In this document: positions 17,460 through 42,095 of the stretch, piece after piece
Layout: every line of letters starts with the position of its first letter
Position numbering within the stretch: position 1 is the stretch's first letter
The notes under the pieces: model-generated
Told to the model about the DNA's origin: nothing
Databases searched by the model: none
The model's input: only the letters and a program-made list of their open reading frames with translations
Source: Bolinopsis microptera
Taxonomy: Eukaryota > Ctenophora > Tentaculata > Lobata > Bolinopsidae
DNA: 60,000 nucleotides
Assembly: GCF_026151205.1 (NCBI RefSeq)
Contig: NC_087078.1
Coordinates: 13,873,118-13,933,117, forward strand
Reading direction: 5' to 3'
Position numbers and translations under genes: made by a program

Positions 17460-17493
<34 letters not shown>

Positions 17494-17494: not shown

Positions 17495-18525
17495 AAATAA
17501 ATGAGGAACCTGCCAAACCCCAGGACACCAGGAGGATACCACCGGCAAAGCGGCTAATAGTACCCTCCGGTCTGTGTTGTACCGAAGAAGCTGAGTTAAT
17601 CGATCATGACTCGGCTTACCAGCCAAGAGGCAAAATCTGAGCGGCACCAGGGGTTCAGAGAGTGTCATTTCAGCTTCTCCGGTGCTGGATGCCCTGGGGT
17701 TTCACATGCGCCGTAGCAAAATAAATATAAAAACACACGCACACAATTTTTTTTTATTCTTTTAGATAATACGTCGAATAAAGTCAGTGGATATAGAGTA
17801 ATAAATTGCACATAAGATGGAGAGAAAAAGGAGAGATACTACTGGTTTTAAATGTGACTCTAAATCAATACTAGTAGTGGAGATAACTCCACTGGCTACA
17901 ACTTGTGAAATAAAGGGTAAAGGTAAGGCACGGCTGTAATTTCGAGAAAATAAATAAACAAGAGTGTATAGTGGATCCAGAACTTTGGGTATAAAATGGT
18001 CATCAAGGTATAACGTCTTTAAGGCACCGTATAATATCCGGTTTTTCACCTAATAAGAAAAGCTTAAGATGTTTAAGATATCGCTCCCAGAATAGGGGTT
18101 CCTTGTTCTGGAAACTCCTTCCAATAAACCAACAGCAAACCGAATTTATGAAGTTAACACTTTTATCACTGTGATTTAAGCAAATCAAATAGTGGCGATA
18201 TGGGTCGTCATAATTTGCGTCAATATTCGATCTAATAAACAGATTTACTCCCTGTAGGAAAGAGCTTGTGGCTGGACAGTCAATAAATATGTGAGAGATA
18301 GTTTCGAGGTTGTGATTACATAACGAGAAATTTGGACTATCTTTTTCAATCTTCATTTTATATCTCATGTACCGACAAGTACTAATCCGGTGAAGGAGCT
18401 TATATTGGTACTGAATAAGTTTGAAGTTATTTGAGAAAGAAGTAAAAATATCCGTAAAAATACTAATCCAATCAATATCCGTTAAGGAGAGGTTAGCACT
18501 CCAGTTCCTCATTGGAGGAAGGGTG
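17476..18525 (-). mobile_element. 5'-truncated L1/Tx1-type LINE, 3' end with poly(A)
   Basis: The minus-strand frame at 18,003-18,512 reads FKLIQYQYKLLHRIS, then SLCNHNLETISHIFIDCP, the C-terminal zinc-knuckle-like region (C..C..H....C) that follows the RT domain in L1/Tx1 elements. It continues through FWERYLKHLKLFLLG to a stop, then a 3' UTR of about 500 bp and a poly(A) tail (T19 on the plus strand). The RT and endonuclease are missing at the right edge, where the palindromic block begins abruptly at about 18,526. Confidence 0.8.
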
Positions 18526-20590
18526 CTGGGATCTAAACGCTTTATGAATGTTATCTCCTATGTAATGATGTTGATTTTGATATTGACTTCGATCATCGGG
18601 ATGTTCGTAAGCTTCCTTTCAAATATCTTAATTTCAAATAAAGCCCAGGGACCAGATGGCATACACGTAAATTATCAAAAATTGTTCCGTAGGTTTTGCT
18701 TACCTCTAACATTGCATTTTTCGTGGATCTTACAACAGCGCTACATACACAGGAATGGAAAACTTGCAAATGTTTGTCCCATATTTAAGAAAGGTAAGAA
18801 AAGTGTGGTTGAAACTATAGACCAATATCCCATACTTGTTAGTATGAAGTTTTTGAGCGAATTTGTTATCGTAAACTGCTTTCTTTGACAAGTACCCTTC
18901 TTGATCCCAGCAGCATGGTTTTTAGAGCACAAGTCATGCACAACCAATATGGTTGACTTATGTGAGTAGCCTGGCATTGTCATCTTACGGAAACATTTAT
19001 CAATCATGTTGTTGTATTTTGATTTTGCTAAGGCATTTGATTCTGTAAATCATGATATCACTTCTTCATAAGCTAAAAGACTTATAAACATTGATGGTTT
19101 ACATTCTCAAATTTCTTACCAATTTACCATTTCAAGGCCGTTACCAACTGTGTGGTTATTGTATTGAGATGTATCTACCCTCTTCATTAATTCTGGTGTC
19201 CCCCGTGCTCTATTCTTGGTCCTTACTTTTGGTATTGTTTATCAATGATATTCCTCTTGGCCTTTCGGATTAATACTGTATTGTTTTGTATGCGATGATA
19301 CAAAATATGGCGTAAAATACATTCATTCTTCTGATATACTAATTTACAAATGGATATAGACTATCTCTTGTTTGGTCACTAAGAAACAAAATGCCGATTC
19401 ATCCAGCAAATGTAAAGTGCTTATTGGTTCAGTAACCATATTTACTCCTCCATTCGCATTCAATCTGATGGCTATCCTCTTGTGTATGTTAGAGTGAGAA
19501 AAAGATCTTGGGAGTCGATGTTACTCTAAGCTAAGTTGGAATAGTCCGTGCGAAGGAATTTATACTAAGCGCCTGCCACACTTGGTATGGTCGTAGAGTT
19601 GGCCTTTTGTCTGTGCAGGATACGTCGCGGGCGCTTTACCTCTCCTGGTTCGTAAAGCCAATTCGAAAATTGTTCATAATCTGGCGCCCTTGTAATAAAT
19701 CACTTAGTGATAAATTAGAAAGTTCAAAAGAGAGCTATTATGGATTCTGTCTGAAGTAGGGCCGCAGTTTTCCTCCTGAGCATATATGTCAAAAAGTGCA
19801 GCTTGTCGACATTCTCCCTTTGTCTCCAAATGTTTGACTTGAATGATCTTATTTTTTTCCACAGAGTTCTTACAATTTAATCCTGTATCACTGCCTCACT
19901 ATCTCTCTTTATATCAGGGCACTTCTCGACTCTAAAGACGTTTGCCACCTCGACAGTATGTCTATTGTGTCATCAATTTTACCTTAAGTTAAGTCAGAAT
20001 TCACAACACCACATGACTCAAATAGCACTGGCAACAAAATCATTTTTCTACAGAACCTCTATACTGGTGGAAGGACTCCTTTACAGTTAAGACAGATTGT
20101 GTCATACTAGTTCTTTTCAAAGCTGAGGTCACTAAGATCTATGAAATGTTTATTGGGTAGTGAAACAACAGTCTTAGCTAGTTCTTTGCTCCCATATTAT
20201 TATTTTTTTTGTTTTATAATTTTTTTTTACTTCTATACTGTTCAACATATATCACACTTCAACGCTCACCTTCTCACACATTAATGACCATTCTGACTGT
20301 ATCTAATGTAATTGGAATTGGACGTATTGAAATACATATTTTGATCTATATCACAGTTATTCCCATGGGATTTGTTTGTTACTTAAATAGTTTTCTTTAA
20401 TTTTTGGTTTTTAGATTAATTCGATGATAATGGGTCCTAGTTATTCGGACATAGTTCACTATGTGTTTACGTGTTTGGGTGCCTCATATTTTACAGATTG
20501 GGGCGATATTTTGAACGATTCTATTTTATATTCATCTATTGCTGTACTCTGTTAAAATTTGAAAAGTATTTAATAAAAAATAAAAATTAA
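18526..20590 (+). mobile_element. APE-type LINE (CR1/Jockey-like), RT to 3' end, pass 1
   Basis: Broken frames carry NKA.GPDG near 18,640, then DFAKAFDSVNHD (motif A) near 19,020-19,060. GVP.GSILGP (motif B) is near 19,195 and YADDT (motif C) near 19,290. After the RT end the 3' region runs to an A-rich tail near 20,590. The frame shifts repeatedly at single-base indels absent from the other passes. The element may be intact in the true genome. Confidence 0.85.
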
Positions 20591-21220
20591 CTTACTTACT
20601 AAATCAAAACAAAATCAAACGAACGAACGAAATGAACGAAAATGAAATACAAGAACAAAAACTATAATTAAAATAAAATTCTAAAAGACATTTCTTCAGC
20701 ATAAACTTGTTGGTGTGCGACATTTACTTTGAGTTCCCTTCCTCTATTAATAGGATTGACTCTTTATTTAAAATATATAAAGTTTTTCAGTAGCAGAGAT
20801 GGGACATCTTTCGTACCCCTTGTACTGATGAGCATGTTTGATTATTTTCCAAGATATTTTATATGTGTTTGTTTATCTTTCAACTCTCATATTTTCTTAG
20901 TAGCTCGTTCTGATTTCGTAGCTTCTCGAGTTTGAAAGAGCTGTGTGTGAACTGAAAGGGTATTAAAGTGTTTCAGTAAGCCAATATATTTGTGCTCTTT
21001 CCTTTTCAGCGAGTTTCCACGCATTAGTTGCTTCATATAATACTGCTGCTTCAGGCATTGTCCGTTCAGTGGGCACATTTCCGGCTTTTGCAATTGCCGT
21101 TTTCGATTTAATTGTGGTTTTTCTGAGTGGTGTCTGGTGTCGCTAGCAATGGATTCTACGCTTGGGTAGGCAACTGATTTGTAGCTTAATTGTTTTTTGT
21201 TGAGCATTTTGTGAAATGGT
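20591..21220. repeat. arm sequence between LINE 3' end and axis A, with an internal repeat
   Basis: Low-complexity ACGAACGAACG tract near 20,620, then about 600 bp of non-coding arm. A subunit containing GGCATTGTCCGTTCAGTGGG at 21,054-21,073 recurs in the axis loop near 21,277-21,300. The open frame read on the minus strand at 20,887-21,258 has no recognisable domain and is interrupted in the other passes. Confidence 0.7.
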
Positions 21221-21390
21221 TGTCTTGGGGAATTGCTCTTTCTTTTCAATTTTTCCACTGCATAGTTGATTCTATATCACTGCTGCAAAGGCATTGTCGT
21301 CAGTGGGACATTTCCGGCTTTCTTCAAATGATGTAACAACAAACATGGCAAGAGCTTTCTCGATTATAGACAAGCATTCCGAGAGGAACC
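21220..21390. repeat. mirror axis A, first occurrence, asymmetric loop
   Basis: Arms match up to a GG(T)GTCCTCTGGGAA(G)TGCT point on both sides. Between them lies about 120-150 bp of unique-orientation sequence that includes CAGTGGGACATTTCCGGCTT and ends in CTTTCTCGATTATAGA. The same loop in the same orientation recurs at 32,930-33,090. No SMRTbell-like adapter sequence is visible. Confidence 0.8.
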
Positions 21391-22049
21391 AATTTCACCA
21401 ATGTTCAACTGAAAACAATTAAGCTATCATACAGTTGCCTACCAAACGTAGGATCCATCTAGCGTGCACCAGACACAAGCTCAGAAAGCAACTACAAATT
21501 AAACGATACCCGTGCAATTGCAGAAAGCCGGAAATGGCCCACTGAAGGACAATGCTGGAAGCAGCAAGTGATATCTGAAAGCAAAGTATTGCAGTGGAAA
21601 ATGAAAAGGAAAGAGCACAATATATTGGTTATGAAAAACACTTTTATGCCGTTTCAGTTCACACCACAAGCTCTTTCAAACTCGAGAAAGCTACGAATTC
21701 AGACGGAGCTATCTAGAAAATATGGGAGTTGAAAGATAAACAAACCCATATAAAATATCTTGGAAAATAATCAAAACATGCTCTTCCGTACAAGGGGGTA
21801 GAAAAGGATTGTCATCTCTGCCTTACTGAAAATTTATATTATTTTAAATAAGATGGCAATTATTAAATAGGGAGGAGGGACTCATAAGTAAAATGTAGGC
21901 ACACAACACGTTTATGCTGAAGAAATGCTTTTAAGGAATTTTATTTTAATTTTAGTTTCTTGTTCTTGTATTTCATTTTCGTTTTCAATTTCGTTCGTTT
22001 CGTTTGATTTTGTTTTTGATTGTAGTTAGATATGTTATTTATTTATTTT

Positions 22050-24132
22050 ATTAATACTTTTCTAATTTTACAGAGTACAGCAATAGATGAATATAAAATA
22101 GAATCGTCAAAATATCGCCCATCTGTAAAATATGATGGGCACCCAAACGGTAAACACATAGTGAACTATGTCCGCAGAAATTGGGACCATTACATCGAAT
22201 TAATCTAAATCCAAAAATTTATTGAAAAAACTATTTAATACACACAATCATGGTGAATAACTGTGGCTTAGAGTCAAAATTTGTATTTCAATACGTTCAA
22301 AATTCCTGATACATTAGATACAGGTCTGAAATGGTCATTAATGTGTGAAAAGGTGTGCGGGTGAAGTGTGATATGAGTTGAAAGTATAGGAAGGTAGATA
22401 AAAAAATAATAAACAAAAATAATAATAATATGGCGGCAAGAGACTAGGCTAGACTGTTGATCTTTCACTATCAATAAATTTCCATAGTGCTAGTGACCTA
22501 GCTTTGAAAAGACTAGTAGACACAATCTGTCTTACCTGTAAAGGTGTCATTCCACCAGTATTTGGGTTCTGTAGAAAAATGATTTTGCCAGTGGGATTGA
22601 GGTACCATGTGGTGTGTGAATCTGACTTAACTTAGGTAAATTGATGACACAATAGACAGACTGTCGAGGTGGCAACGTATTAGTCGAGAAGTGCCTGATA
22701 GAAAGAGGAGATAGTGAGGCAGTGATACAGGAATTAATTGTTAAGAACTTTGTGGAAAAAAATAAGATCATTCCAAGTCAAACTTTTGAGACAAGGGTGG
22801 AATGTCGACAAGCTTTGACTTTTGCTTATTGTCAGGTGATAAATTGCGGCCTCTTTCAGAAAGAATCCATTTAATTGCTCTCTTTGGAGACTTTCTAATT
22901 ATCACTAAGTGATTTATTACAAGGCGCCAGATTATGGATCCAATTTTCGAATTGGCTACGAACCAGGGAGAGGTTAAGCGCCCGGCGACGTTTCTGATCA
23001 ATGGACAATATGGCCATCTCTTCTGACCATACCAAGTTGTTGGCTGGCCTTAGTTTAAAATTCTGTCGCGATGACTTTCAACTTAGCTTAGGAGTAACTG
23101 AACTTCCTAGATTTTTTCTACCTTCATACACAAGAGGAGAGCCATTCAAGATTGTATGCGAATGGAGGAGATAAGGATGGTTTTCCTGAAACAATAGCAC
23201 TTTACTTTTTGATGGATGGAATCGCATTTTGGTTTTCTTAGTGACCAGTCAGAGAGATAGGTATTTATCATTTGTAAAATAGTATTATCAGAGATGAAAT
23301 GTATTTTACGCAGAATTTGTATCATCGGCATACAAAAAAATATCAGTATAATCCGAAGGCAGAGGTATATTGATAAACAATAAAAAGTAAGGACCAAGGA
23401 AATAGAGCCCTGGGGGACACAGAATTTAATGTGAGGGTAGATGACTTCATTACCAATAACACTCTTTGGTAACGGGCCTTGAAGGTAAATTGGTAAGAAT
23501 TTTGAGAGTCGTACCACACTGTTATATAAGGTCTTTAGCTTATGAAGAAGGATATATATGTACAGAATCAAATGCCTTAGCAAAATCAAAATACACACAC
23601 ATGATTGATAATGTTTTCGTAAGAGGACAATGCCTAGGCGTATCAAAAGTCAACCATATTGGTTGTGCATGACTTGTGCTCTAGAAAACCATTGCTGCCT
23701 GGGATCAAGAAGGGTACTTGTCAAAAGAAAGCAGTTTTCGTTTACAATGCGCTCAAAAAAAACTTTTCATGACTAAACAAGTAAGGGATATTGGTCATAA
23801 GTTTTCAACCTCACTTTTCTTACCTTCTTAAATATTGGAAACATATGCAGTTTCCATTCTTGTGGAATGTAGCCGCTGTTGTAAGAAATCACGAAAAATG
23901 CATGTGGTTAGAGGGTAGCTAAACTACGGAACAATTTTTGAGAATTTAACGTGTATGCCATCTGGTCCTGGGCTTTATTTGAATTAATATTTGAAAGAAG
24001 CTTACGAACTCCCGATGATCGAAGTCAATATCAAAATCAACATCATTGAATTGGGTGACTATCAGTGTCATAAAGTGAAGATCCGAAAACTGGTTTAAAG
24101 AAAATAGAATTGAAAAGTTCAGTTGAGCTTTG

Positions 24133-24186
<54 letters not shown>

Positions 24187-25250
24187 CGAAGCTGTCAGAA
24201 TAACTTATCACAATGTGGAAATCGGCAGGGAGTTAGAATTTATAGTAACATGTGACCAAAACTCTCTTGTTATAGCGCTGGATCTCACATATTGAAAGAT
24301 TGTTCTTATTTTGGCTGATGAAAGCCTCTTTAATTTTTCGGCTAGTAAACATACTTTACTCATCAGAAATAGAATCCAGAAATTTTTAAATTTAGATCTG
24401 AGTCTATCCTTTTTACGGCATAAGAAAAAAGTTCATATCGAACCACGGGGGTTTGAAACTCTGATTTAATAGATACTTTGGATATGTATATCAAAACTAA
24501 TATTCATAATGCAGTCTTTAACTAATTCCAAGACGAATCAGGATTTGGCATTCTAGGACTTGCCATTAATCGAGCTAATCACGATTAATCATGTCCAGTT
24601 TGCTTTTATCATTATAGATTTACGTTTAGGAGTTTTTTGCGGGAAAATGGGCTGTATGAAAAAGTGTACAGGATAATGATCGATTTGCACACGGAATGAG
24701 GATCACAGACATTCAAGTTAATCGATTGTGTTTCATAATTTTGAGATGAATGTCTAAGTATTACCCCTTTTTATGGGTGGGTGATGTGATCAACTTGGGA
24801 GAAGTGAAAGATAACTGAAGAATCATGAAGGATTGCTCAATAGGTACGGTAATGTGAAGATAGCAGTCTGTATGGGGGAGATTAAATTCACCAATATACA
24901 TAGATTTTAGGGGATTCTTTTGGAAAACTAGCTTGCGATATAACTAACTATCGGAATTCATGATTAGGTAACCAAGAGTTCACTACTCTATAAAAGTACA
25001 GATTACAATACTCTCTTTGTTGGAAAAGCATATTAAGCAAGCATTTCTGCACTAGGCTAACTGTTTGTCGGTTGTAGTGCATCGAGATCAGACCCGGACC
25101 AGCCAAAAGAAAACCACCTCATTTTACTCAACTTTTTAGGGTTTTTGGATCTTGAGGATGAGTCTTTCTCGTGCGGTCATTGCGGAGGTTTCATATTGTG
25201 ATAGTAGAAAGGATTTCGTTGCTAGTAAATATTTTTTTGAGCCAGTCTCA
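22050..25250 (-). mobile_element. APE-type LINE, pass 2 (reverse)
   Basis: Mirror copy of the LINE, 3' end near 22,050. The YADDT motif is at about 23,316-23,334 and the GPDG landmark at about 23,966. The endonuclease GDFNLP segment is near 24,873-24,900, all minus strand. Frames are broken by indels (for example the 166-codon piece at 23,146-23,646). A 47-T run at 24,135-24,181 is absent from the equivalent place in the other passes. Confidence 0.85.
24135..24181. repeat. T47 homopolymer present in one pass only
   Basis: The equivalent positions near 30,200-30,240, 35,825-35,840 and 41,790-41,830 have only a few T. This run is therefore pass-specific and probably a sequencing or consensus error. 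Confidence 0.9.
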
Positions 25251-26611
25251 TTTAGGCATTTAGGTCAGGTGCTCTATGTTAGCAAGGATTGAAGTTCGGA
25301 AATCTTATTACCATCAAGAACGGGGATGGGAGGGCTTAGGTTACTGATGGATAAGACTTGGACATGTTGGTAAGTATGATAGGGAGTTGGGAAGGATTAA
25401 GCATAGAAGGATTAACAAGAGTTATCAAAAGAAAGTTAAGAGAGAAAACCAAAGAATGAATAAAGTACTAGACGGCTGAGGCGGCTGGAATACTTGACCT
25501 CTATTCTATCTTTACCAGGGAGGAAGAACATTTCTTATAAAACTGAGGAGTTAATTACAAAGAAAAGTTTGATGTGGGTGCAGCAAGAAATGGTATAGAT
25601 AACGTGGGCTGTCAAGGAGTAGAGAGGAATGAATATTAGAATCTAGGGGGATTACGGTGTTATGGACCTAGTCGTGGAGAGAAGAATGGGAGAAGGTAAG
25701 TCATGATGAGAGAATAGAGAGCACATTGATTATGATAAATAGTAGTTGATGTGTGGGGTGCATGGAGAATTAAATGTGTAAATTTTGTTAGGTTATAAAA
25801 CGTGTTTGATATGTATATGTGCATTTCTTGACTGTGTACGCGAGGCCTTTTGCAGCAAAAAGACCTATTCTAAGTCTAAACGATTCATTGTCTAACATAT
25901 GGAATAAATGGCAGTGACCGATGTTACCTGGTAAATAGGAGGCATAAAAGTTGAGAAAAGATTAATTCAGAGATTTGTTTGAGTTTTAATTTAGGCAACG
26001 TCATAATCAAAAAAATTAAATGAAAGAAAGATCAAAGATTTAAATTCCCAGAAGATTATTTACAAACCTGTCAAAATACTCTGTGTTCGTTTACAACTAA
26101 CTTAGCCATGTGGACAGTAAACCCTACTCCTCTCATGTTGAGATGAAGCCAACAAGGTATAGAAGTTCATTACTATGATCAAAAGTCTCGAGTTAAAAAG
26201 TTTGAGAAACAGTCTAGGAACACGAATTATTTTTATGCATAAGTCTTTAAGAAGTTGTTAAATCTAGAAACTTTCTTTGCTATGTAGGAATATAACACTT
26301 AATAGGAAGACCAAACATTGGACATTATAATATGCAGCGGGTAAAATAACTGCTTTAGTGGTGTCAATTAATCAGTAAGATAACTTCCTAAGGAACTTGA
26401 ACCCATACTTAGATGTTTATAATGTCTTAGTTACCAACTTCAATATAATTGTTTCAATATACGTCAGCTTCTGCTGCTGCATGAGTTTATGTAAATGATT
26501 AAAGGAGCTTGTAGGAAAACATGGATTTATTAATTTATAAAGTTATTTCTTGCCATGAGATTGCTTTGCATGAAACCTCTGAGTTTGTAGAATCCGTTGT
26601 TTTAATTATAT

Positions 26612-26658
<47 letters not shown>

Positions 26659-27119
26659 TTATATATTTATCTATATTATATTTTAAACTTGACGAAATTC
26701 AACGCAACGGGGACATAGAAGAAAAAAACACGAAAATCCTCCTCATAATGACCTCTGGTGATGCCAAACCCAGCTCGCAAAGGAGTTGAAAAACTCGCCT
26801 TTTTTTAGAGGGTTGTAGAAAAAGGATAGGAATAGGCTATAGCATTCTTAGAATTTTGATTTTGGCTTTAGTTTTTTGATAATTAGTCGGAAGTGAGGTT
26901 AAATTATCGTTAGAATAATGGCGTTATTTAAGACAATAGGTATACTGCGCTGTTGCGTAGCAACGTTAAAATGCACGTGCGCGAGCAACACAGTTTTACA
27001 ACGCGCGTTTGTTATGTGTATGCTACGTCATTAAATTCAAAACTGCTCACATTTACGCTCACGCTATGACTTCTTATAACTTTGTTTGTGATTGGTATTT
27101 TGATGCGGTAAAAGTATCG
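25251..27119. repeat. palindrome arm outside the LINE coding part, with (TA)n
   Basis: No coding motif was recognised; this is presumably LINE 5' sequence plus flanking arm. Near 26,605-26,670 there is an AT dinucleotide tract. Its mirror copies lie near 27,650-27,725, 38,245-38,320 and 39,295-39,360. Inside it, 26,690-27,119 forms one arm of the foldback around axis B. Confidence 0.7.
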
Positions 27120-27640
27120 TTTTGGGAATCGAATACTAACAAGACGCTGTCGCCATTGTTAGATAAATTCCCTTATGTCGACAGGTTGTTAGTATTCGGA
27201 TTCCTAAACGATACTTTTTCAGCATTCAAAATTACAAATCAAAAAACAAAAGTTATAAGAAGTCATAGCGTGAGGTAAAGGGAGCTAGTTTTGAAATTAT
27301 GACGTAGCTTCAGAATAACAACACGCGTTGTTAATATGTGGTGCTCGCGCAGTGCATTTTTGTAACGTTGCTACGCAAAGCGCAAGTAAACTTTGCTTAA
27401 ATAACGTCCATTATCTCTAACGATTATTTTACCTCACTTCCGACGTTAATTTAAAAAATCTAAAGACCTAATCAAAATTCTAGAATGCTATAGTATTCCT
27501 ATCTTTTTTCTACAACCCTGCTAAAAATGGCGAGGTTTCAACTCATTTTGCGAGCTGGGTTTGGCAATCACCAGAGGGTCATTTGTGGTCGATTTTCGGT
27601 GTTTTTTCTTCTATGTCCCCGTTGCCGGGGATATTTCGTC
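26690..27640. repeat. foldback at axis B, first occurrence (arms of at least 450 bp)
   Basis: The arms run from a GACGAAATT..CGGGGACATAG end through CCTCACTTCCGAC, TTGCGTAGCAACGTTA and TATGACTTCTTATAAC to AAACGATACTTTT on both sides. They surround a central asymmetric spacer of about 28 bp (CATTGTTAGATAAATT). The structure resembles a foldback/MITE-type element but continues outward without a break as the larger palindrome. It recurs at 38,335-39,280. Confidence 0.75.
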
Positions 27641-29099
27641 TAGTTTAAAATATATAATATAGATAATAGATATTATATATATATTACATTTATGATTATA
27701 TATATATATTTTTATAATTATATATAATGAAAACAAACGATTCTCAAACTCAGAGTTTTCATGCCAAATGCAAAATCAGTGTCAGAATAATTATTAATTA
27801 ATTAAATCCATGTTTTGCTTATCCAAGAGGTTCCTTCATCATTTTCATAAAATCATGCAAGCTGCAGAAGCTGACGATGTTGAAAATAATATTGAGTGTG
27901 GTACTAATGACATTAACCATTCTAAGTATGGGTTCAGTTCCTTAGGAAAGTATAACTTTATCTGAATTAATTGACGCCACTAAGCAGTTATTTCCCGCTG
28001 CAAATTATAATTGACCAATGTTGTCTTCTATTTAGTGTTTATATTCCTACATAGCAAAGAATCGATCTAGATTTTTAACAATTAACTTAAGACTTTTGCC
28101 TAAAGGAGGATAAAAAATACAATTTGCGTGTTTCCTAGACTGTTTCTCAAACTTTTTAAATCGCGACTTTGATCCATGTAATGAACTTCTATACCAGATT
28201 GGCTTTCATCTCACTGGAGAGGAGTAGGTTATACTGTCCATTGGCTTAAGTTTGGTTTGTAATCGAAACACAGTTTTGACAGGGTTGAAATAATTTATGG
28301 GATTTAATCTTTGATTTTTCTATTCATTTAATATTTTGATTAAGCGTTGCGCTAAATTAAAAACTCAAACAAAATCTCTGATTTAATCTTTTTCTCAATT
28401 TTATGCCTCTATTTCAGTCATTCGGTCACTGCCAATTTTTCCATTGTTAGACAATGAATCGTTTAGGGACTTAGAATAGGTCTTTTTGATGCCAAAGGCC
28501 TCGTAACACAGTCAAAGAATTGCACATATAATATCAACTCGTTTATTACCTAACAATATTTACACATTTAATTCTCCATGCACCCCACCACATCAACTAC
28601 AATTATATAATCATATGTTTCTTTCTATTCTAATCATTTTGACCTTACCTTCTCCAATTTTCTTCTTCACGACGAGGTCCATGAACACGTATTCCCCTAG
28701 ATTCTAATATTCATTCTTTACTCCTTGACAGCCAGTTATCTTATATCATTTCTTGCTTGCTCCACATAAACTTTTTTTTGTAATATCTCCTCATGGTTTT
28801 TAAGAATGTTCTTTCCCTGGGAAGATGGATATGAGTCAAGTATTCCAGCGCCTCAGGGTTTTAGAATCTTTATTCATTCTTTGGGTTGTTCGCTTAATTT
28901 CTTTTGATAACTCTTGTTATCCTTCTATGCTTAATCCAGGTCCCTAACTCCCTATTCTATTTCTTACCAAAATGTCCAAGGTCTTATTCTTTCAGTAACT
29001 AGATCCTTTCCATCATTCTGATGTTAATAAGATTTTCGAAACTTCATCCTTTGCTAACATAGAGCAGCTGACATATATTGCCTAAAATGAGATTGGCTC
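27641..29099. repeat. palindrome arm, pass 3, upstream of recognisable LINE coding
   Basis: Mirror of 25.25-26.69 kb. It contains the (TA)n tract and about 1.3 kb without readable motifs. Any first open reading frame of the LINE would lie here, but indels destroy it. Confidence 0.6.
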
Positions 29100-32000
29100 A
29101 AAAAATCTATTTATAGCAAAACGAAATCTATCCTTTTTCTCAGATGGAAATCTTCGCATTGACGCCACGAAGAAAGGACCTCATCTCAAGATTCTAATAA
29201 AAATAAAAAGTTTAGGGAAAATGGAGGTGGTGTTCTTTGGCTGTTCGGTCTGATCTCGATGCCACTACGACCCGAACTACAGTTAGCCTTAGTGCAGAAA
29301 TGCTTGCCGTTAAAATGCTTTTCTAACAAAGAGAGTATTGTAATCTGTATGTTATAGAGTAGGAACTCTTGGGTTACCTATATGATGTCATAGTTAGTGA
29401 TATTCGCAAGCTAGTTTACACTAAGGAATCCCCTAAAATCTTATGTTATTGGTGATTTTTAATCTCCCATACGACTGGCTATCTTCTCAGTACCGTACCT
29501 ATGAGCAGATCCTTCATAGTTCTTTCAGTGATTCTTTCTCTCTCCCAGTTGATCATCACCCACCCATAAATGTGGTTAATACATCTAGATCATTAAAATT
29601 CTCAGTAATTATGATTAACACAATCGATAACTTGAATGTCTGTGCTCCTCATTACCGTGTGCAAAATCTGATCATTTTCTGTCACTTTGTCAATTAAATG
29701 CTCCTTTTCCAGCATCGAAAAAACTCCTAACGTAAAATCTATAATTATAAGAAAGCAAACTGGGACATAGATAATCGGTGGAATTATGCTCGTTTAATTG
29801 GGCATGTCTAGAATGCCTAGAGCTGATTCGTCTTGGGAAGTTAGTTTTAAAGTCTGCATTATGAATTAGTTGAATATACATATTTCCTATAAGTAACTAT
29901 TAAATAGAGTTTCAAACCCGTGGTTCATATGACTTTTTTCTTTCAAGCCGTTAATAAAGGATAGGACTCAGATCTAAATTTAAAATTTCTGGTTCTTTTT
30001 CTGATGAGTTAAAGTTTGTTACTAGCCGTAAGATTTTAAGAGGCTTTCACAGCAATATAAGAGACAATCTTTTCAATAGTGATGATCCTGGCGTAATATT
30101 AAGGATGTTTTGGTCACAATTGTTAAGTTTAAATGCTAAATAAAAACTTCCTGCCGTTTTCCTAAGTGTGTTTGTTATTCTGGACAGGCTTCGGTTCAAA
30201 ACCAAAGTTCTAGCTGAACTTTTCATTTCTTTTCTTTTTTACTGTTTTCGGATCCTTCACTTTATGGACACTGATATCTCCTATGTCAATGATGTTTGAT
30301 TTTGATATTGACTTCGATCATCGGGATGTGTTCGTAAGCTTCTTTCAAATATTATTTCAAAATAAAGCCCTGGGACCAGATTGGCTACAACGGTAAATCT
30401 CAAAAATTGTTCAGTAGGTTGAGCTTACCTCTAACATGCTTATTTCGTGGATTTCAACAGCGGGTACCATTCCCAAGAATGGAAACTTGCAAGGTTGTCC
30501 CAATATTTAAGAAAGGTAAGAAAAGTGAGGTTTGAAAGTATAGACAATATCCCTTACTTGTTTGTCATGAAAGTTTTTGAAGCGCATTTGTTAAACGTAT
30601 ATGCTTTCTTTGACAGTACCTTCTTGATCCCAGGCAGCATGGGTTTTCTGTGCACAAGTTCATGCAAACCAAGTTATGGTTACTTTGTGATAGCCTGGCA
30701 TTTGTCTCTTAACCGAAAACAATATCAATCATGTTGTGTATTTGATTTGCTAAGGCATGTGATTTCTGTAAATCATGATATCCTTCTTCTTAAAGCTAAA
30801 GACCCTTATATAACATTGATGGTAACTTTCAAATTTCTTACCAATTACCTCAGGCGTTACAAGATGGTTATTGGTAATGAGATGTATCTACCCTCTCAGT
30901 TATTCTGGTGTCCCCCAGGGCTCTATTCTTGGTCTTTCTTTTTGTATTGTTTATCAATGATTTCTCCTTGGCCTTTCGGGTAATACTGATATTGTTTTGT
31001 TGCGATGATACAAAAATTGGGTAAAATAATTCATCTTCTGTAATACTATTTACAAATGGTATAGATAATCTCTCTGACTGGGCTCTAAGAAAACAAAATG
31101 CGTTCCTCAGGCAAAATGTAAAGTGCTTATTGTTTCAGGAAAAACCATCTTTATCTCCTCCATACCATACTATCTTGATGGCCTCTCTTGTGTATGTAGT
31201 GTAGAAAAAAGATCTTGGAGTCGATGTTACTCCTAAGTAAGTTGGAATAGTCAGTGCGACAGAATTTATACTTAAGGCTGCCAACAAATTGGATGGTCAG
31301 AAGGATGGCCATATTGTCTATTGATCAGAACGTCGCGGGCGCTTTACCTTACCTGGTGCGTAGCCAATTCGAAAATTGTTCATAATTCTGGCGCCCTTGT
31401 AATAATCATCATTTAGTGATAAATTAGAAAGTCTCAAAGAGAGCTATTAAATGGATTCTGTCTGAAGTGGGCTCAGCAGTTATCCACCTGAGCAAATGTC
31501 AAAAGTTGCAATGCTTGTCGACATTCTCCCTTTGTCTCAAATGTTTGACTTGAATGATCTTATTTTTTTCACAAAGTTCTTACAATTTAATTCCTGTATC
31601 ACTGCTCACTTCTCTTTTATATCAGGGCACTTCTCGACTAAGACGTTGCCCACCTCGACAGTTAGTTCTATTGTGTCATCAATTTTACTAAGTTAAGTCA
31701 GAATTCACACACCACTGTACTCAAATAGCCACTGGCAATCATTTTTCTACGGAACCATATACTGTGGAATGGGACTCCCTTACGGAAAGACAGATTGTTG
31801 TATACTATCGTCTTTTCAAAGCTGAGGTCATAAGCATCTTTGGAAATGTTTTTTGGATAGTGAAACAACAGTCTAGCCTAGTCTCTTTGTCCCATATTAT
31901 TATTATTTTGTTTTATTAATTTTTTTATATTCCTTTATTACTTTCACTCATATCACACTTCACCGCACACCTTCTCCACACATTAATGACCATTTCACGA

Positions 32001-32290
32001 CCTGTATCTAATGTATCTGAATTTGGAGTATTGAAATTACAAATTGTGACTCTATTATCACAGTTATTCACATGGATTTGTTTGTTATAAATTGTTTTCA
32101 TAAATTTTTGGATTTAGATTAATTGATGTAATGGGTCAAGGTTTAATGCGGACATAGTTAACTAGTGTTTACCGTGTTTGGGTGGCCCATCATATTTTAC
32201 AGATGGGGGCGATATTTTGAACGTTATTTTATAATCATCTATTGCTTTACTCTGTAAAATTTGAAAGATTTTATAAAAAAAAATAAAATT
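29100..32290 (+). mobile_element. APE-type LINE, pass 3 (most readable forward copy)
   Basis: Endonuclease motifs are visible near 29,445-29,480 (I.FNLP.DW, from IGDFNLPxxDW). They are also seen near 29,530-29,575 (SLPVDHHPP) and near 29,640-29,680 (CAPH...KSDHF type). RT motifs follow: GPD near 30,372, QE-WKLA near 30,470, NHDILL near 30,775, GVPQGSILG near 30,910 and DDT near 31,005. The 3' end is A-rich near 32,290. APE endonuclease followed by RT without RNase H or integrase places it with CR1/L2/Jockey-like LINEs. Frames break at nearly every few dozen codons through indels. Confidence 0.87.
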
Positions 32291-32929
32291 AATTAAACTT
32301 AGATAAATCAAAAACAAATCAAAAACGACGAAACGAATTGAACGAAAAATGAAATACAAGAACAAAAACTAAAATTAAAATAAAATTCCTAAGCATTCTT
32401 CAGCATAAACTTGTTGGTGTGCTTACTTTTACTTATGATGTTCCTCTCCTATTTAATATGATTGCCATCTTTATTTAACAAAAATATATAAAGGTTTTCT
32501 GTAGGCAGAGATGCAGTTTCGTACCTTGTACGGATGAGACATGTTTGATTATTTTCCAAGATATTTTATATGGTGTTTGTTTATCTTTCAACTCCATATT
32601 TTCTTAGAAGCTCGTTGATTTCGTAGCTTCTCGAGTTTGAAGCAGCTTGTGTGTGAACTGAAAAGGGTCTTAAAAGTGTTTTCAGTAAGCCAATATATTT
32701 GTGCTCTTTCTTTTCAATTTTCCACTGCAATAGTTGACTTATATATCACTTGCTGCTTACAGGCATTGTCCGTTCAGTGGGAATTTCGGCTTTCTGCAAT
32801 TGCTCGTTTTCGATTTAATTGTAGTTCTTCTGGTTGGTTGTTGGTGCGGTAAGAGGATCTACGTTGGGTAGGAACTGTTGATAGCTTAATTGTGTTTTGT
32901 TGAAACATTTTTGTGTGAAATTGGTGTCC

Positions 32930-33090
32930 TTGGGGAAGTGCTCTTTCTTTTCATTTTCATGCAATAGTTGCTTTCATATATCACTGTGCTTCCAGGCATT
33001 GTCGTTCAGTGGGACATTTCGGCTTTCTGCAATGTAACAACCAAAATTAGCAAGGCTTCCTCGATTATAGAAAGCACTTCCCAGAGGACA
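32930..33090. repeat. mirror axis A, second occurrence
   Basis: Same asymmetric loop as at 21.3 kb, same orientation, with independent small differences. The flanking arms again match outward to the LINE 3' ends near 32,290 and 33,720. Confidence 0.8.
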
Positions 33091-33699
33091 CCATTTCAAA
33101 AATGTTACAGAACACAATTCAGTCTCATACAGTTGCACCCAACGTAGGATCATTTAGCGAGCCAGGCACCAAAGCTCAGAAGAAACTACAAATTAAATCG
33201 AAAACGTGCAATTGCAGAAGCCGGAATGTGCCACTGAACGTGAAATGCCTGGAAGCAGCAGTGATATATGGAGCAAACTATTGGCAGTGGAAAAAATGCA
33301 AGGAATGAGCACAAATATATTGGGCTTACTGAAAACTCTTTTAAGACGTTTAGTTCACCACAAGCTTTTAAATGAGAAGCTACGAAATAGACGGAGCTAT
33401 CTAGAAAATATGGGAGTTGAAAGATAAACTAAACCATATAAAATATCTTGGAAAATAATCAAACATGTCATACGTACAAGGGGGTCGTAAGATTTGTATC
33501 TCTGCCTTATGAAACACTTTATATTATTTTAAATAAAGATGCAATCTATACAATTGGAGGAGGGAATCTAGTAATGATAGGCACACACAAGTTTATGCTG
33601 AAGAAATGCTTTTGCGAATTTTATTTTAATTTTAGTTTTTGTTCTTGTATTTAATTTCGTTTCAATTTCGTTTCGTTCGTTTGATTTTGTTTTTGATAT

Positions 33700-36600
33700 A
33701 GTTAAGTTAGTTTATTTTATTTTTTTTATTAAATACTTTTCAAATTTACAGAGTACAGCATAGAGAATATAAAATAGAATCGTTCAAAATTATCGCCCAT
33801 CTGTAAAATATGATGGGCACCCAAAAACACGGTAAACCATAGTGAAAACTATGTCGCAAGTAACTTGGACCATTACATCGACTTAATTAAATCCAAAAAT
33901 TATTGAAAAACTATTTTATATCTCAAAACAAATCCATGGGTGAATAACTGTGGATTTAGAGTCAATTTTGTATTTTCAATACGTCAATTCAGATACATAG
34001 ATACGGTCTGAAATGGGTCATTAATGTGTGAGAAGGTGTGGGGTGAAGTGTGAATATGATGTTGAAAGTATAGGAAGTAGATAAAAAAAATTAATAAACA
34101 AAAAATAATAATAATATGGGAGCAAAGAGGGACTAGGCTAGACTGTTGTTTCCTATCAATAATAAACATTCCATAGATGGCTTAGTGACTCAGCTTTGAA
34201 AAGACTAGTAGACACAATATGTCTTACCTGTAAAAGGGAGTCCATTCACGAATATGGTTCTGTAGAAAAATGATTTTGCCAGTGGGCTATTTGAGGTACA
34301 TGTGGTGTGGAATTCTGGACTTACTTAGGTAAATTGATGCACAATAGACAGACTGTCGGGGTGGCAACGTCTTATGTCGAGAAGTGCCGATATAAAGAGT
34401 GATAGTGAGGCAGTGATACAGAATTAATTGTTAAGACTTTGTGAAAAAAATAAAGATCTTCAAGTCAAACTTTGAGACAAAGGGAGAATGTCGGACAAGC
34501 TGCACTTTTTGACATATTGCTCAGGTGGTTAACTGCGGCCTTCAGACAGAATCCATTTAATAGCTTCTTTTGGAGTCTTTCTAATTTATCACTATGTGAT
34601 TATTACAAGGGCGCAGATTATGGAAACAATTTTCGAATGGCTCGAACCAGGGTAGAGGTAAAGCGCCCGGCGACGTTTTGATCAATGACAATATGGCCAC
34701 TCTTTCTGATCATTACCATGTTGTGGCAGGCCTCTAGTATAAATCTGTCGCACTGGGATATTCCAACTTAGCTTAGGAGTAACATCGCTCCAAGTCTTTT
34801 CTAACTCTACATACTCAAGAGGAGAGCCATCAGATAGTATGCGAAGGAGGAGATAAGATGGTTTCTGAAACAATAGCATTTACATTTTGCTGGATGGAAT
34901 GCATTTTGTTTCTTAGTGCCAGTCAGAGAGATAGTCTATTATTCCATTTGTAAATTAGTATTATCAGAAGTTGAATGTAATTTTAGCCAGATTTTTGTAT
35001 CATCGGCATACAAAACAATATCAGTTTTATTCCGAAAGGCCAAGAGGAATTCATTGATAAACAATACAAAAGTAAGGGACCAGAATAGAGCCCTGGGGGA
35101 CTCCAGAATTTACTTAGAGGGTAGATGACATCTCATTAACATAACCACTCTTTGGTTAACGGCCTTGAAGGTATTTGTAAGAAATTTGTTAAGAGTGTAC
35201 CATCAATGTTATATAAGGTCTTTAGCTTATGAAGAGGATATCATGATTTACAGAATCAATGCCGTAGCAAAATCAAAATACACAACATGATTATAATGTT
35301 TTCGTTATGAGACAATGCAGGCTATCACAAAAGTCAACCTTATTGGTAGTGATGACTTGTGCTCTAGAAAAACAGGCTGCCTGGATCAAGAAGGGTACAT
35401 GTCAAAGAAAAGCAGTTTACGTTTACCAATGCGCTCAAAAACTTTATGACTAAACAAGTAAGGGATATGGGGGGTGAGTGGGGGGCCCCCGGGGGATCTT
35501 ATAGTTTTCACTCACTTTTCTTACCTTTTAAATGATTGACAACATTTGAATGTTTCCATTTTGTGGTATGTAGCCGCTGTTGTAAGATCCCGAAAAATGC
35601 ATGTTAGAGGGTAAGCTAACTACGGAACAATTTTGAGAATTTTACGTGGATGCCATATTGTCCCTGGCTTTATTTGAATTAATATTGAAGAGCTTACGAC
35701 ATTCCGATGAGCGAAGTCAATATCAAAAAATCAACATCATTGACATAGGGAGATATAGTGTCTAAGTGAAGGATCCGAAAACTGGTTATAAAAGAATGAA
35801 TTGAAAAAGTTCAGCTTGAGCTTTGGGTTTGATCCGAAGGCTGTCCAGATAACTAACCACAATTAGGGTATACGGCAGGAGTTAGATTTATACTTAACAT
35901 GTGACAAAACTTCTTAGTTATTTAGGGCTGAATCATCCACTATTGAAAATGATGTTCTTATTTTGGCTGATGAAAGCCTCTTATAATCTTTACGGCTAGT
36001 AACAACTTTAACTCATCGATATAGAAACCAGAAATTTTAAAGTTTGAATGGAGTCTATCCTTTTTACGGCATGAAGAAAAAGTTCTCTCACGAACACGGG
36101 GGTTGAAACTCTGATTTAATTAGTTACTTTAGGAATTTGTTTTTCAACCTAAATTCTTAATGCAGTCTTTCAACTATCTTCACGGTCGAATCAGGTTCTA
36201 GGCATTCTAGGATTGCCAAATTAATCGAGCAGAATTCCGGATTATTCATGTCCTGTTTCTTTCTTTAATTATAGATTTTACGATTAGGGAGTTTTCTTGG
36301 GGAAAAGGAGCTTTTATTGAAAAGTGACAGGAAAATGATCAGATTTGCACACGGAATGAGGATCACAGACATTAAGTTATCGATTTGTTATCATTATTAT
36401 GAGAAGAAATGTCTAATGTATTACACTTTTATGGGTGGGTGATGTGATCAAATGGGAGAGAGAAAGATCACTGAAGAATCTATGAAGGATTGCTCATTAG
36501 GTCGGTACTGGATGAAATAGCAGTCTGTATGGGGGAGATTATAAATTCACCAATAACATAGATTTTAGGGGGATTCTTTTTTGGAATAAACTAGCTTGCG

Positions 36601-36870
36601 ATATAACTAACTATGACATCATGATTAGGTACCCAAGAGTTCTACTCTATAACAAAAGTACAGATTACAATACTCTCTTTGTTAGGAACAAGCATTTTAC
36701 GGCAAGCATTTCTGCACTAGGCTACTGGTAGTCGGGTTGTAGTGGCATCGAGATAGACCGAACAGCCAAAGAACACCACCTCCATTTTCCCTTAAACTTT
36801 TTAGGGTTATTAGGGAAAAAAATCTTGAGATGATTCGTTCTCGTGCGGTCATTGCGAAGACTTTCTTATT
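33700..36870 (-). mobile_element. APE-type LINE, pass 4 (reverse)
   Basis: Mirror of pass 3: YADDT equivalent near 34,995-35,010, GPDG landmark near 35,655, GDFNLP equivalent near 36,530-36,560. A G/C-rich burst at 35,468-35,496 has no counterpart in the other passes and looks like read noise. Confidence 0.85.
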
Positions 36871-38334
36871 GAGAAGAAGGAAAGATTTCGTTGCTAGAAT
36901 AGATTTTTTGAGCAAGTCTCTTTTAGGGCAATTATGTCAGGTGCTCTATGTTAGCAAAGGATTGAAGTTCGGAAATCTTATTTCCATCAAGAAGGGATGG
37001 AGGAGCTTAGGTACTGAAAGGATAGGACTTGGACATTTGGTAGAGTATAGATAGGGAGTTGGGACCTGGTTTAAGATAGAAGGTTAACAAGAGTTATCAA
37101 AAGGAAAGTTAAGAGAGAAAACCCAAAGAATGAATAAATGATACTGAGCCTGAGGCAGGCTGGAATATTGACTCTATTATCTTACAGGGAGAGAACATTT
37201 CTTATAAACCATGAGGAGATAATTACAAAGAAAAAAAAATAAAAGTTTTGATGTGGGAGCAGCAAGAAATGGTATCAAGATAACGTGGCTGTCAAGGAGT
37301 GAGAGGAATGATATATTAGAATCTAGGGGCATCTGTGTTCTGGACTAGTCGTGGAGAGAAGAATTGGGAGAGGTAAGTCATGATGAGAGAATAGAGAGAA
37401 ACATATGATTTGATAATGTAGTTGTTGTGTGGGGTGCATGGAGAATTAAATGTGTAAATTTTGTTAGGTATAACGTGTTGATATGTATATGTGCATTTCT
37501 TGACGTGTACGAGGCCTTTTGCATGCAAAAAGACTATTCTAGTCTAAACGATTCATTGTCTAACATGGAAAATGGGCGGACGAATGTACCTGAAATAGGA
37601 GCATAAATTGAGAAAAAGATAAAAATCAGAGATTGTTTGAGTTGTAATTTTAGGCGCAACGTCTTAATCAAAATATTAATGAAAGAAAAGATCAAGATAT
37701 TAAATTCCCAGATAGATTATTTACAACCCTGTCAAAACTGTGTTCGTTTCACAACTTAAGCCAAGTGACAGTAAACCTACTCCTCTCATGTTGAGATGAA
37801 GCCAATCATGGTATAGAAGTTCATACATGATCTTAAAGTCTCGAGGTAAAAAGTTTGAGAAAAACAGTCTAGGAAACACGCAATTATTCATTAGCATAAG
37901 TCTTTAAGTAGATTGTTAAAATCTAGAACATTCTTTGTATGTAGGAATATAAACACTTATTAGGAAGACAACAACTGGCAATTATATTGCAGCGGAAATA
38001 ACTGCTTAGTGGTGTCATTAAATTCAGTAAGATATTCCTAAGGATGAACCCATTCTTAGAATGTTTAACTGTCTTTAGTACAACATCAATATAATTTTTC
38101 AATATTCGTCAGCTTCTGAGCTGCATGAGTTTATGAAAATGATGAGGAGCTGTAAGGAAAACATGGATTTATTAATTTATAAGATATTCTGACACTGATG
38201 ATTGCATTTGCATGAACTCTGAGTTGTTGATCGTTGTTTTTCATTATCTATATATATATATATATTTATATATTTATATATATGTATACTATATATTTAT
38301 ATATATATATCTATATTAAATTTTAAACTTGACG

Positions 38335-39280
38335 AAATTTCCCCGGCAACGGGGACATAGTAAGAAAAAAACGAAAATCGCCTCAAAATGGACCCTCTGG
38401 TGATTTGCTAACCAGCTCGCAAATGAGTGGCAACTCGCCATTTTTAGCAGGGTTGTAGAAAAAGGATAGGAATAGGCTATAGCATTCTTTGATTTTATTT
38501 AGGCTTTAGATTTTTTATATTTAACGTCGGAAGTGAGGTTAAATATATCGTTAGTAGAACTGCGTTATTTAAGCATAGTTTACTGCGCTGTTGCGTAGCA
38601 ACGTTAAAATGCACGTGCGCGGAACCACAGATTAACAACGGCGTTGATTATGCTGTAGCTACGTCATAATTTCAAAACTAGCTCCACATTTACGCGCACG
38701 CTATGACTTCTTATAACTTTGTTTGTGATGGTATTTTGATGCGGTAAAAAGTATCGTTTTGGGAATCGAAATTAATAACACGCTGTCGTCCTATTGTTAG
38801 ATTAAATTACATTATGCGGACAGCGTTGTTAGTATTCGGATTCAAAACGATACTTTTTACCGCATCAAAAATACAATCACAAACACAACAAAAGTTATAA
38901 GAAGTATGGCGTGAGCCGTATTATGTGAGTAGTTTGGAAATTATGACGTAGCATTACAGCATAACAACGCGCGTTGTTTAAATCTCGTGGTGCTCGCGCA
39001 CGTGCTTTTTACGTTGCTACGCAAGCGCAAGTAAACCTTTGCGTAAATAAGCAATTATTCTAACGATTATTTAACTCACTTCCGACGTTAATTATAAAAA
39101 TAAATCTAAATGCTAAATCATTTCTAGAATGCTATAGCTATTTCTATCCTTTTTCTACAACCCTGCTAAAAATGGCGAGGTTCACTCATTTTGCGAAGCT
39201 GGGTTTGCATCACCGAGGTCATTTTGAGGTCGATTTTCGTGTTTTTTCTTCTATGTCCCCGTTGCGGGGAAATTTCGTCA
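38335..39280. repeat. foldback at axis B, second occurrence
   Basis: Repeats the structure at 26,690-27,640 with the same central spacer (TATTGTTAGATTAAATT) in the same orientation and scattered indel differences. Confidence 0.75.
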
Positions 39281-40689
39281 ATGTTTAAAATATTATATAG
39301 ATCTATATATATATATTTATTTTACATATATATATATATTATATTTATAGTATATTATTTATTAAATGAAACATCGAGTCTACATACTCAGAGTTTCATG
39401 CAAATGCATTCATCAGTGTCAGAATTAACTTATTAAATTAATAAATCCTGTTTTCCTTACTAGCTCCTTCATCATTTTCATAAAAACTCATGCAGCTGCA
39501 GAAGCAGACGATATGAAAAAATTATATTGAGTGTTGTTACTAATGAATTAAATATTTTTAAGTATGTGGTTCAGTTCCTTAGGAAAGTATCTTACTGATT
39601 AATTGACACCCACTAAGCAGTTTATTTCCCGCTGGCAATTATAATTGGCCAATGTTGTCTTCCTATTATGTGTTTTTTATTTCTACATAGCTAGAATGTT
39701 CTAGATTTTAACAATTTACTTAAAGGACTTATGCTAAAGAATTAATTGCGTGTTCTAGGACTGTTTCTCAATTTTTAACTCGAGATTAGATCATGTAATG
39801 AATTATATACCTCGATTGGCTTCTTCTCAACATGAAGGAGTAGGTTTACTGTCCATTGGCTTAAGTTGTTAGTAAACGATCTCAGTTTTGACAGGGTTGT
39901 AAATTAATTTCTGGGAATTTAAATCTTTGAATCTTTTCTTTCATTTATATTTGATTAAGACGTTGCGCCTAATATTAAAACTCAAACAAATCTCTGATTT
40001 AATCTTTTTCTCAATTTTATGCCTCCTAGTGCGGTACTTCGGTCACTGCCAAATTTTCCATATGTTAGACAATGAATCGTTTTAGATTAGAATAGGTTTT
40101 TTGCATGCAAAAGGCTCGTTACACGTCAAGAATATGCAAATATACATATCAACACGTTTCATAACCTAACAAAATTTACCATTTAATTCTCCATGCACCC
40201 CCACACATAACTACAATTCTCAAATATATGTTTCTCTTCTATTCTCTATCATGACTTACCTTCTCCCAATTCTTTCTCCACGTTAGGTCCATGAACCCGT
40301 ATTCACTAGATTATAATATTTCATTCCTCTCTACTCCTTGACAGCCACGTTATTATATTACCATTTTTGCTTGCTCCCACATCAAACTTTTCTTTGTAAA
40401 TTATCTCCTCATGGTTTATAGAAATGTTCTTTACCTGGTAAGATGAATAGAGTCAAGTATTCCAGCCGCTCAGGCGTCTAGTATCTTTTTTCTTCTTTGG
40501 TTCTCTCTTAACTTTCTTTTGATAACTCTGTTAATACTTCTATGCTTTAATCCAGGTCCAAACTCACTATCTATACTTACCAAAATGTTCCTAGGTCTTA
40601 TTCTTTCAGTTACCTATGCTCCTCATCCACTTTCTTGAAGGTAATAAGATTCCGAACTCTTCAATCCTTTGTAACATAGAGCAGCCTGA

Positions 40690-42095
40690 CATAATTGCTA
40701 AATGAGTCTTGGCTCAAAAAATCTATTTCTAGCAAGAATTATTTCCTCTTCTCATATGAATCTCCCGCAATGACGCACGTGAAAGGGACTCATCCTCAAG
40801 ATCCTATTAACCTAAAAGTTTAGGAAAATGGAGGTGGTGTTCTTTTGGCTTTCGGTTGATTCGATGCCATAGACCGACTACCGTTGCCTAGGTGCCAGAA
40901 TTGCTTGCGTTAAAATTGCTCTTCCTAGCAAGCGAGTATTGTAATCTTACTTGTTATAGGTAGGAACTCTTGGGGTACTATCATGTTGTCATAGTTAGTT
41001 ATATTCGCAAGTTAGTTTCCAAAAAGAATCCCCCTAAAATTATGTTATTGGTGATTGTAATCTCCCCCATCAGGTCTGGCTATCTTCATCAATTACGTAC
41101 CTATTGAGCAAGCCTTCAAAGATTCTTTCAGTGATCTTTCTCTCTACCAGTTGATCACAGCACCCACCATAAAAGTGTTATTACATTAGAATTCTTCTCA
41201 GTACTTGATTCAACCACATCGATAACTTGAATGTCTGTGCATCCTCATTCCGTTGTGCAAATCTGATCTTTTCCTGTCACTTTTCAATTAAAAGTCCTTT
41301 TCCGACAAGGAATAACTCCTAACGTAAAAATCTATAATTATAAGAAAGAAGAAACTGGACATGATTAATCGTGAATATGCTCGATTAATTGGCAAGTCCT
41401 TAGGATGCCTAGATCCGGATTCGTATTGGAGTTAGATAAGCTGCATTATGAATTTAGTGTTATTACATATTCTAAAGTAAACTATTAAATCAGAGTTCAA
41501 CCGTGGTTCGATAGTGTACTTTTTTCTTCATGCCGGTAAAAAAGGGATAGATCAGATCATAAATTTAAAATTTCTGGTTCTATTTCTGATGAGTTAAGTT
41601 GGTTACTTAGCCGTTAAGATTTTAAGTGGCTTTAATCAAGCCAAAATAAGAGAAAATCTTTCAATAGTTAGAAAATTAATGATGATCCAGGCTATTAACT
41701 AAGAAGTTTTGGTCACATGTTAAGTTAAAATCTTACCCTCCCTGCCGTAGTTCCTTAATATGTGTTAGGTTATTCTGGACAGCTTCGGTTCAAACCACAA
41801 GTCAAGCTGAACTTTTCAATTCTTTTTTTAAACCGTTTTCGGATCCTTCACTTTATGATCCTACTGATATCTCCTATGTCAATGATGTTGATTTTGTTAT
41901 TTGACTTCGAAATCGGGATGTTAGTAAGCTTCTTCAAATATTAATTCAAATAAACAGCCTGGGACAGATGGATACACGGTAAAATTCTCAAAATTGTTCC
42001 GTAGGTTTGCTTACTCTTACATGCATTTTTCGTGGATCTTACAACTGCGGCTACATTCCCCGAGAATGGAAACTTGCAAATGTTAGTCCCATTTC
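40690..42095 (+). mobile_element. APE-type LINE, pass 5, ends inside the RT
   Basis: The endonuclease GDFNLP equivalent is near 41,045-41,085 and the GPDG landmark near 41,960. The pass stops in the CPIFKKG region at about 42,095. That is about 240 bp past the position at which pass 1 began in the same element, so the junctions lie inside LINE sequence on both sides of the block. Confidence 0.83.

Follow-up and report, generated by a model that had tools for sequence, protein, structure and literature searches.

Probable raw read sequence copied from a closed dumbbell template within the Bolinopsis microptera genome assembly

We identified a 23,551-base block of alternating inverted copies (positions 18541-42091) in a 60,000-base stretch of the genome assembly of the ctenophore Bolinopsis microptera (GCF_026151205.1, NC_087078.1). 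The block is most probably raw read sequence that was pasted into the assembly, with a closed dumbbell or its copy as template, and not a feature of the chromosome (a probability of about 0.93). This figure covers the artefact itself only, a core shared by two of the alternatives weighed below, phi29 amplification and a dumbbell present in the living animal. The evidence comprises errors of raw type that are mostly private to single passes, letter-identical reuse of the sequence at other loci, fold-back loops, constant orientation of these loops and the absence of adapter-like sequence from the block. The whole stretch (hereafter the window) corresponds to C7:13873118-13933117 and was compared with the entire genome (264.65 Mb in 232 contigs, designated C1, C5 and so on).

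Passes, errors and recurrence at other loci

Self-BLAST of the window revealed five alternating copies (passes) of one ~5.85-kb segment, with 82-85% pass-to-pass identity over nine long alignments of 2.5-6.9 kb, lengths at which chance is no concern. Mirror axes were located near 21.3, 27.17, 33.0 and 38.8 kb, with two alternating loop sequences. These results agree with an earlier note on this DNA, which had reported forward, reverse, forward, reverse and forward copies of a 5.85-kb sequence, the same axes, two loops of constant orientation read as a dumbbell, and differences dominated by single-base indels and burst errors. Its bounds of 18526-42095 were roughly right and could be refined to 18541, where identity with a piece of C13 begins, and 42091, where the match to a long interspersed nuclear element (LINE) stops. 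Most of the unit is this LINE. Pass 1 (partial, 18541-20580, + strand) contains its 3' part in sense orientation, with 90.6-90.9% identity to three clean genomic copies (L025-L027). According to the LINE alignment, pass 2 (22041-26499, - strand) is antisense, pass 3 (27835-32281, + strand) is sense and 5'-truncated at about LINE base 1111, pass 4 (33721-38145, - strand) is antisense, and pass 5 (partial, 39468-42091, + strand) is sense and cut by the block end.

Every pass differed from the clean LINE by ~9-12%, including 2.8-5.1% substitutions, 3.6-4.2% deletions and 1.9-3.0% insertions, and most indels involved a single base. Two bursts were also present: a 46-base insert, nearly all T, in pass 2 (24138-24183) and a G/C-run insert in pass 4 (35469-35499). 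The left flank of the block (17476-18540) belongs to a ~1.46-kb repeat. Its stretch 17476-18563 was 98.3-98.4% identical to two other copies of the repeat, and identities in a wider search were mostly 98-99%, indicating that the assembly is clean there. Error in the block is therefore far above that of the surrounding assembly (~9-12% versus ~2%).

We then counted, column by column, how many passes differed from the three clean LINE copies in the region covered by four passes (2182 columns, 12 dropped where the clean copies differ; the aligner used for this count yields more substitutions than BLAST). The numbers of columns with 0, 1, 2, 3 and 4 differing passes were 1268, 703, 165, 38 and 8, respectively, against a binomial expectation under independence of 1221, 763, 179, 18.6 and 0.7. 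Almost all errors occur in one pass only, with counts near binomial, and the same change was seen in all four passes in a single column of the 2182. Private changes alone would equally suit old array copies that had diverged separately; such divergence is disfavoured because error-bearing letters recur identically elsewhere in the genome.

Window positions 18541-19185 are 100% identical to C13:16122151-16122795 (645 bases). The preceding 7150 bases on C13 (16115001-16122150), which directly abut this piece, are 100% identical to C5:15245137-15252286 on the opposite strand. Error-bearing letters thus recur at other places over 645 and 7150 bases. Further relationships were derived from matches of equal score in the flank and junction searches. 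Coordinates of paired matches sum to 31,367,287 for C13 and C5 and to 22,957,397 for C9 and C5, whereas C1 minus C5 coordinates give 10,734,856. A second place on C5 (9541718-9566828) lies constantly 5,711,504 bases below its partner, and matches extend to 9572504 without a listed partner. The equal scores and constant offsets suggest that the C9, C1 and second C5 places are identical to the first array on C5. The same read sequence is apparently present in five further stretches (two on C5 and one each on C13, C9 and C1), and a stretch of C11 shares their structure; taken from outermost match to outermost match, the block and these stretches total ~220 kb.

In the first C5 array (15245137-15360978) the alternation extends over ~116 kb, or about 20 passes (ten rounds). 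Ten axes of the first loop type (loop 1) were found between 15.254 and 15.360 Mb, spaced 11.7-11.9 kb apart. The axis at about 15.2775 Mb had been absent from the first listing; it was predicted by the spacing and found when the locus was fetched (L065). If this array is one read continued by the window, that read would measure at least about 139 kb. A LINE stretch with ~20% error and stretched homopolymers follows at the array's upper end (C5:15360999-15363241, L064:1999-4241). Its orientation is opposite and it does not continue the array; it is probably another raw piece, the other option being a low-quality part joined there.

The earlier note had left a choice between an unpolished multi-pass long read and a genuine array of 11.7-kb palindromic units in tandem. 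The private errors and the identical error-bearing letters on C13 and C5 argue for the read. A true array in the chromosome would account for the loop orientation and the 11.7-kb period, both of which suit head-to-tail copies, but it is scarcely credible: pieces carrying errors are letter-identical on C13 and C5, offsets are constant on C9, C1 and at the second C5 place, and pass errors are nearly all private beside a clean left flank. Such an array should consist of clean, mutually consistent copies at one locus, which we did not observe, and neither junction of the LINE with its flanks occurred in clean form among the matches listed (see below).

The repeat unit and its two loops

By its sequence, the core of the unit is an ordinary LINE (a non-long-terminal-repeat retrotransposon), 5'-truncated in the block, where about the first 1.1 kb of the clean copies is missing. 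The three clean copies were mutually 99.1-99.5% alike when aligned over 5.55-5.6 kb. Open reading frames (ORFs) of 460 and 1171 residues were present in L025 and L026, the two copies checked for ORFs; in L025 the longer one matched the Pfam families RVT_1 and Exo_endo_phos_2, and the shorter one a GDSL lipase. The assignment is based on the endonuclease and reverse transcriptase ORF, the 5' truncation in the block and dozens of dispersed matches. We also observed a ~2-kb tandem array of a 29-base unit near the LINE copy on C8 (L027:1-1998).

The LINE has flank B on one side and flank A on the other, both of which are repeat sequences. Flank B (20581-21237, + strand) is an ordinary repeat whose copies elsewhere are clean (L043-L053). 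Flank A (26500-27152) consists of ~140 bases beside the LINE, followed by a ~500-base repeat. Copies that lack the LINE, such as L044 and L047, have the first ~140 bases of flank A immediately next to flank B, so that the unit has the appearance of a host repeat into which an ordinary 5'-truncated LINE has inserted. The flank-B repeat was also seen in inverted pairs ~0.8 kb apart (C1:19292195-19294409 and C12:458323-460477), in the manner of a foldback-type element.

Searches with the two LINE-flank junctions scored 40 of 210 candidates for flank A and 40 of 413 for flank B. The flank A junction was crossed by 36 of 67 matches (79-88% identity apart from the query itself), which lie in error-rich places on C5, C7, C9, C11 and C13; of the remainder, four were clean but confined to flank A and 27 were short. 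All 40 matches crossed the flank B junction, again in error-rich places (C1, C5, C7, C9, C11 and C13). No clean copy of either junction was found among these matches (40 of 210 and 40 of 413 candidates scored), and a clean copy beyond them is unlikely.

The two loops are distinct in sequence. Loop 1 occurs at 21238-21372 and 32943-33072, and loop 2 at 27153-27178 and 38789-38816, each in the same direction on the + strand at both occurrences. Loop 2 is 26-28 bases long, and its sequence continues linearly in all nine clean copies of flank A that were searched for it (L031, L032, L034 and L036-L041). At its turn in the block, pairing of CTACAG (CGACAG in the first pass) with a CTGTCG lying upstream would be possible with one mismatch. 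The folded form of loop 2 reached 142, 118 and 135 of 164 in the three copies scored, compared to 114, 87 and 103 of 200 for the natural form. Loop 1 has a compound structure, in which flank B proceeds to GTGCT, jumps back ~250 bases to another GTGCT, and continues for ~95 bases; this displaced piece of flank B, with ~45 further bases, precedes the turn-back. In all four copies scored, its folded form reached 294-354 of 448, compared to 138-166 of 340 for the natural one. The loops are thus fold-back points in ordinary repeats at short complementary matches.

Orientation was read letter by letter for seven loops, and was kept in all of them: the four in the window, loop 2 on C13 (L054), loop 1 on C11 (L066) and, as the reverse complement, loop 1 on C5 (L065). 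Because the examined loops never reverse, the template was either a closed dumbbell or a concatemer made from such a dumbbell. We rejected a nested fold-back lacking closure, since it would flip alternate loops, contrary to the constant orientation. Another candidate was a natural foldback transposon at each end, suggested by the inverted pairs that flanks A and B form at other loci. However, loop 2 is linear in clean copies and loop 1 needs two jumps, which indicates that the turn-backs belong to this molecule. The third rejected candidate was a parvovirus-like or other hairpin-ended virus, for which the 5.85-kb unit and two terminal hairpins were suggestive; the clean copies are LINEs with endonuclease-reverse transcriptase and GDSL-lipase-like ORFs.

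Mirror-image reads can also result from missed adapters (as described for PacBio data, PMC6218980), and sequencing adapters overlooked by software were weighed as a cause. With the SMRTbell adapter sequence as reference, the best local scores in the four loops were 17-20 of 90, near the shuffled means of 17.3-18.4, and the whole block gave 27 of 90 compared to a mean of 24.1 and a maximum of 28 in 20 shuffles. Adapter-like sequence was hence present in none of the four loops, in agreement with the earlier note, and nowhere in the block. In addition, the two loops are unlike each other and both match genomic repeats. Overlooked adapters are hardly to be believed as the cause of the turns.

Origin of the template and route into the assembly

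In the pathway we favour, the template would be a closed dumbbell of genomic DNA, its 5.85 kb made up of the 5'-truncated LINE and the two flanking repeats, with fold-back hairpins at both ends. Single-stranded 3' ends of a fragment may have folded back at short complementary matches, been extended and then been ligated, so that the dumbbell closed during DNA handling or library preparation. The polymerase would have circled this adapter-free molecule many times; with no adapter in the circle, rounds would repeat and the software would have no point at which to split the read. The product would be one read of >100 kb, nearly uncorrected and most likely a PacBio continuous long read (CLR), and a single read may lie behind the whole C5 array. 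It could then have served as filler in several scaffold gaps falling in repeats.

What is described of the assembly is consistent with this pathway. The B. microptera genome (n=13, with 13 scaffolds holding 97.23% of bases) was built with wtdbg2, HiRise, TGS-GapCloser, Purge Haplotigs and Pilon, and libraries of the species in that study were PacBio CLR, HiFi or Iso-Seq (PMC10232365). As wtdbg2 was chosen for it and hifiasm for the sponges, its genome reads were presumably CLR and not HiFi. Two of three glutamate-receptor pieces taken from the genome analysed here agree with a ctenophore source. The piece L068 matched ML032222a, from the comb jelly Mnemiopsis leidyi, at 184.6 bits over 110 residues (85 identical), ahead of 4zdm from another comb jelly (105.8 bits) and of 2gfe, the top-scoring entry with the name Glutamate receptor 2 (62.8 bits); L069 likewise favoured ML032222a. 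L067, in contrast, was closest to delta and kainate receptors, and ML032222a was absent from the 60 of 366 entries listed for it. TGS-GapCloser fills a gap with the highest-scoring long-read fragment after correcting candidates; one read can give several candidates, and misalignments caused by errors or repeats can produce large misassemblies (PMC7476103). Near both flanks of the block, the window contains sequence of which close copies exist elsewhere on C7, and this would account for a gap at the site.

Of three possible origins of the dumbbell (library preparation, amplification or the living animal), we prefer library preparation. Under the second possibility, phi29 multiple displacement amplification (MDA) would have turned a dumbbell into a rolling-circle concatemer that was read once and pasted raw. 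The phi29 reaction has a described signature in which ends fold back at short matches and junctions are mostly inverted (PMC1855051), and amplified Arabidopsis PacBio libraries gave reads with up to 15 palindromes (PMC6218980). On the other hand, the paper on B. microptera does not use the word amplification in its main text (PMC10232365), and on general grounds a polymerase that circles 11.7 kb is more probable than a single insert of >100 kb. We regard this origin as unlikely. The third possibility is a hairpin-closed extrachromosomal dumbbell in the animal, caught by chance in one read and pasted raw. Closed ends are needed before or during library preparation, and no adapter is seen in the circle; an in vivo and an in vitro origin are indistinguishable from the letters. 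However, the data probably represent a single molecule (although the C11 stretch could be a second read), and a unit composed of a truncated LINE and host repeats shows nothing pointing to autonomous maintenance. Such a dumbbell is very improbable, and it would be a long shot that ctenophore cells form hairpin-capped linear extrachromosomal DNA containing the LINE and its flanks by fold-back of resected ends, with one molecule read.

Several observations weigh against the proposed explanation of the block as a pasted read. Columns with three or four differing passes exceed the binomial expectation (38 and 8 versus 18.6 and 0.7), an excess to be expected from systematic errors or from a small number of true differences. 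Deletions outnumber insertions and substitutions are frequent, whereas the error profile of PacBio CLR is insertion-led. The C11 stretch (17867031-17874525) has a like structure without an identical partner; it may be a second read. At high sensitivity, comparison of the window flanks with the block gave no convincing similarity (best E 0.006 over 44 bases), leaving the placement of the read at this gap unexplained by the flanks, and priming of the polymerase on an adapter-free dumbbell is presumed. The error of ~10% persists although TGS-GapCloser corrects candidates (PMC7476103) and Pilon polishing is reported (PMC10232365). The 13 contigs above 15 Mb, the next largest having 198 kb, hold 97.51% of bases (258,070,895), compared to 97.23% in the published description (PMC10232365). 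Finally, among three PacBio samples in one survey, fold-backs were virtually none in HiFi and Mas-Seq and 0.03% in Iso-Seq (PMC12870357).

If left in the assembly, these inserts would mimic palindromic arrays, recent LINE amplification or interchromosomal segmental duplication. They can be told apart from real arrays by error-bearing letters common to distant loci and by turn-backs at short matches in repeats that are otherwise linear.

Surroundings of the block and comparison with known systems

Several features of the surrounding window were noted. On the right, 42241-47000 has an inverted copy at 98-99% identity ~70 kb away on C7 (13987065-13992409), which is either a segmental duplication within the region or a duplicate made by the assembly. 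On the left, 13606-17402 recurs with 93-97% identity at three further loci of the same chromosome; most of a 982-residue ORF (13527-16475) with low-density lipoprotein receptor class A and rhodopsin-family seven-transmembrane domains falls within it. A 913-residue ORF (7755-10496, - strand) had no Pfam match at E 0.001; by eye, we take it to be a candidate Penelope-like reverse transcriptase.

Parvovirus-type genomes resemble the block in their 5-6 kb unit, terminal hairpins, and head-to-head and tail-to-tail copies. In contrast, the block consists of a LINE and host repeats, the only Pfam families matched by the L025 ORFs are those of reverse transcriptase, endonuclease and GDSL lipase, and the turn sequence of loop 2 is linear in clean copies. 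A literature search found no title or abstract opening on many-turn, adapter-free dumbbell reads, from which we make no claim that they are unpublished.

Three described artefacts are closer. In the inverted chimeras of MDA, 3' ends likewise prime at short complementary matches and give inverted products (PMC1855051); here the product would be a closed dumbbell or its copy, and amplification is unmentioned in the main text on this genome. The fold-back artefacts treated by Breakinator likewise consist of reads that reverse upon themselves, in which adapter sequence may be lacking (PMC12870357), whereas many turns are present here and the artefact described there occurs throughout Nanopore library types. 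The palindromic chimeric reads treated by Pacasus, attributed to amplification or a missed SMRTbell adapter, share with the block forward-reverse alternation in one error-rich PacBio read, and they harm assemblies (PMC6218980). Unlike the cases described there, the sequence reported here runs to ~20 passes on C5, keeps its loop orientation, contains no adapter-like sequence and lies inside a chromosome-scale assembly.

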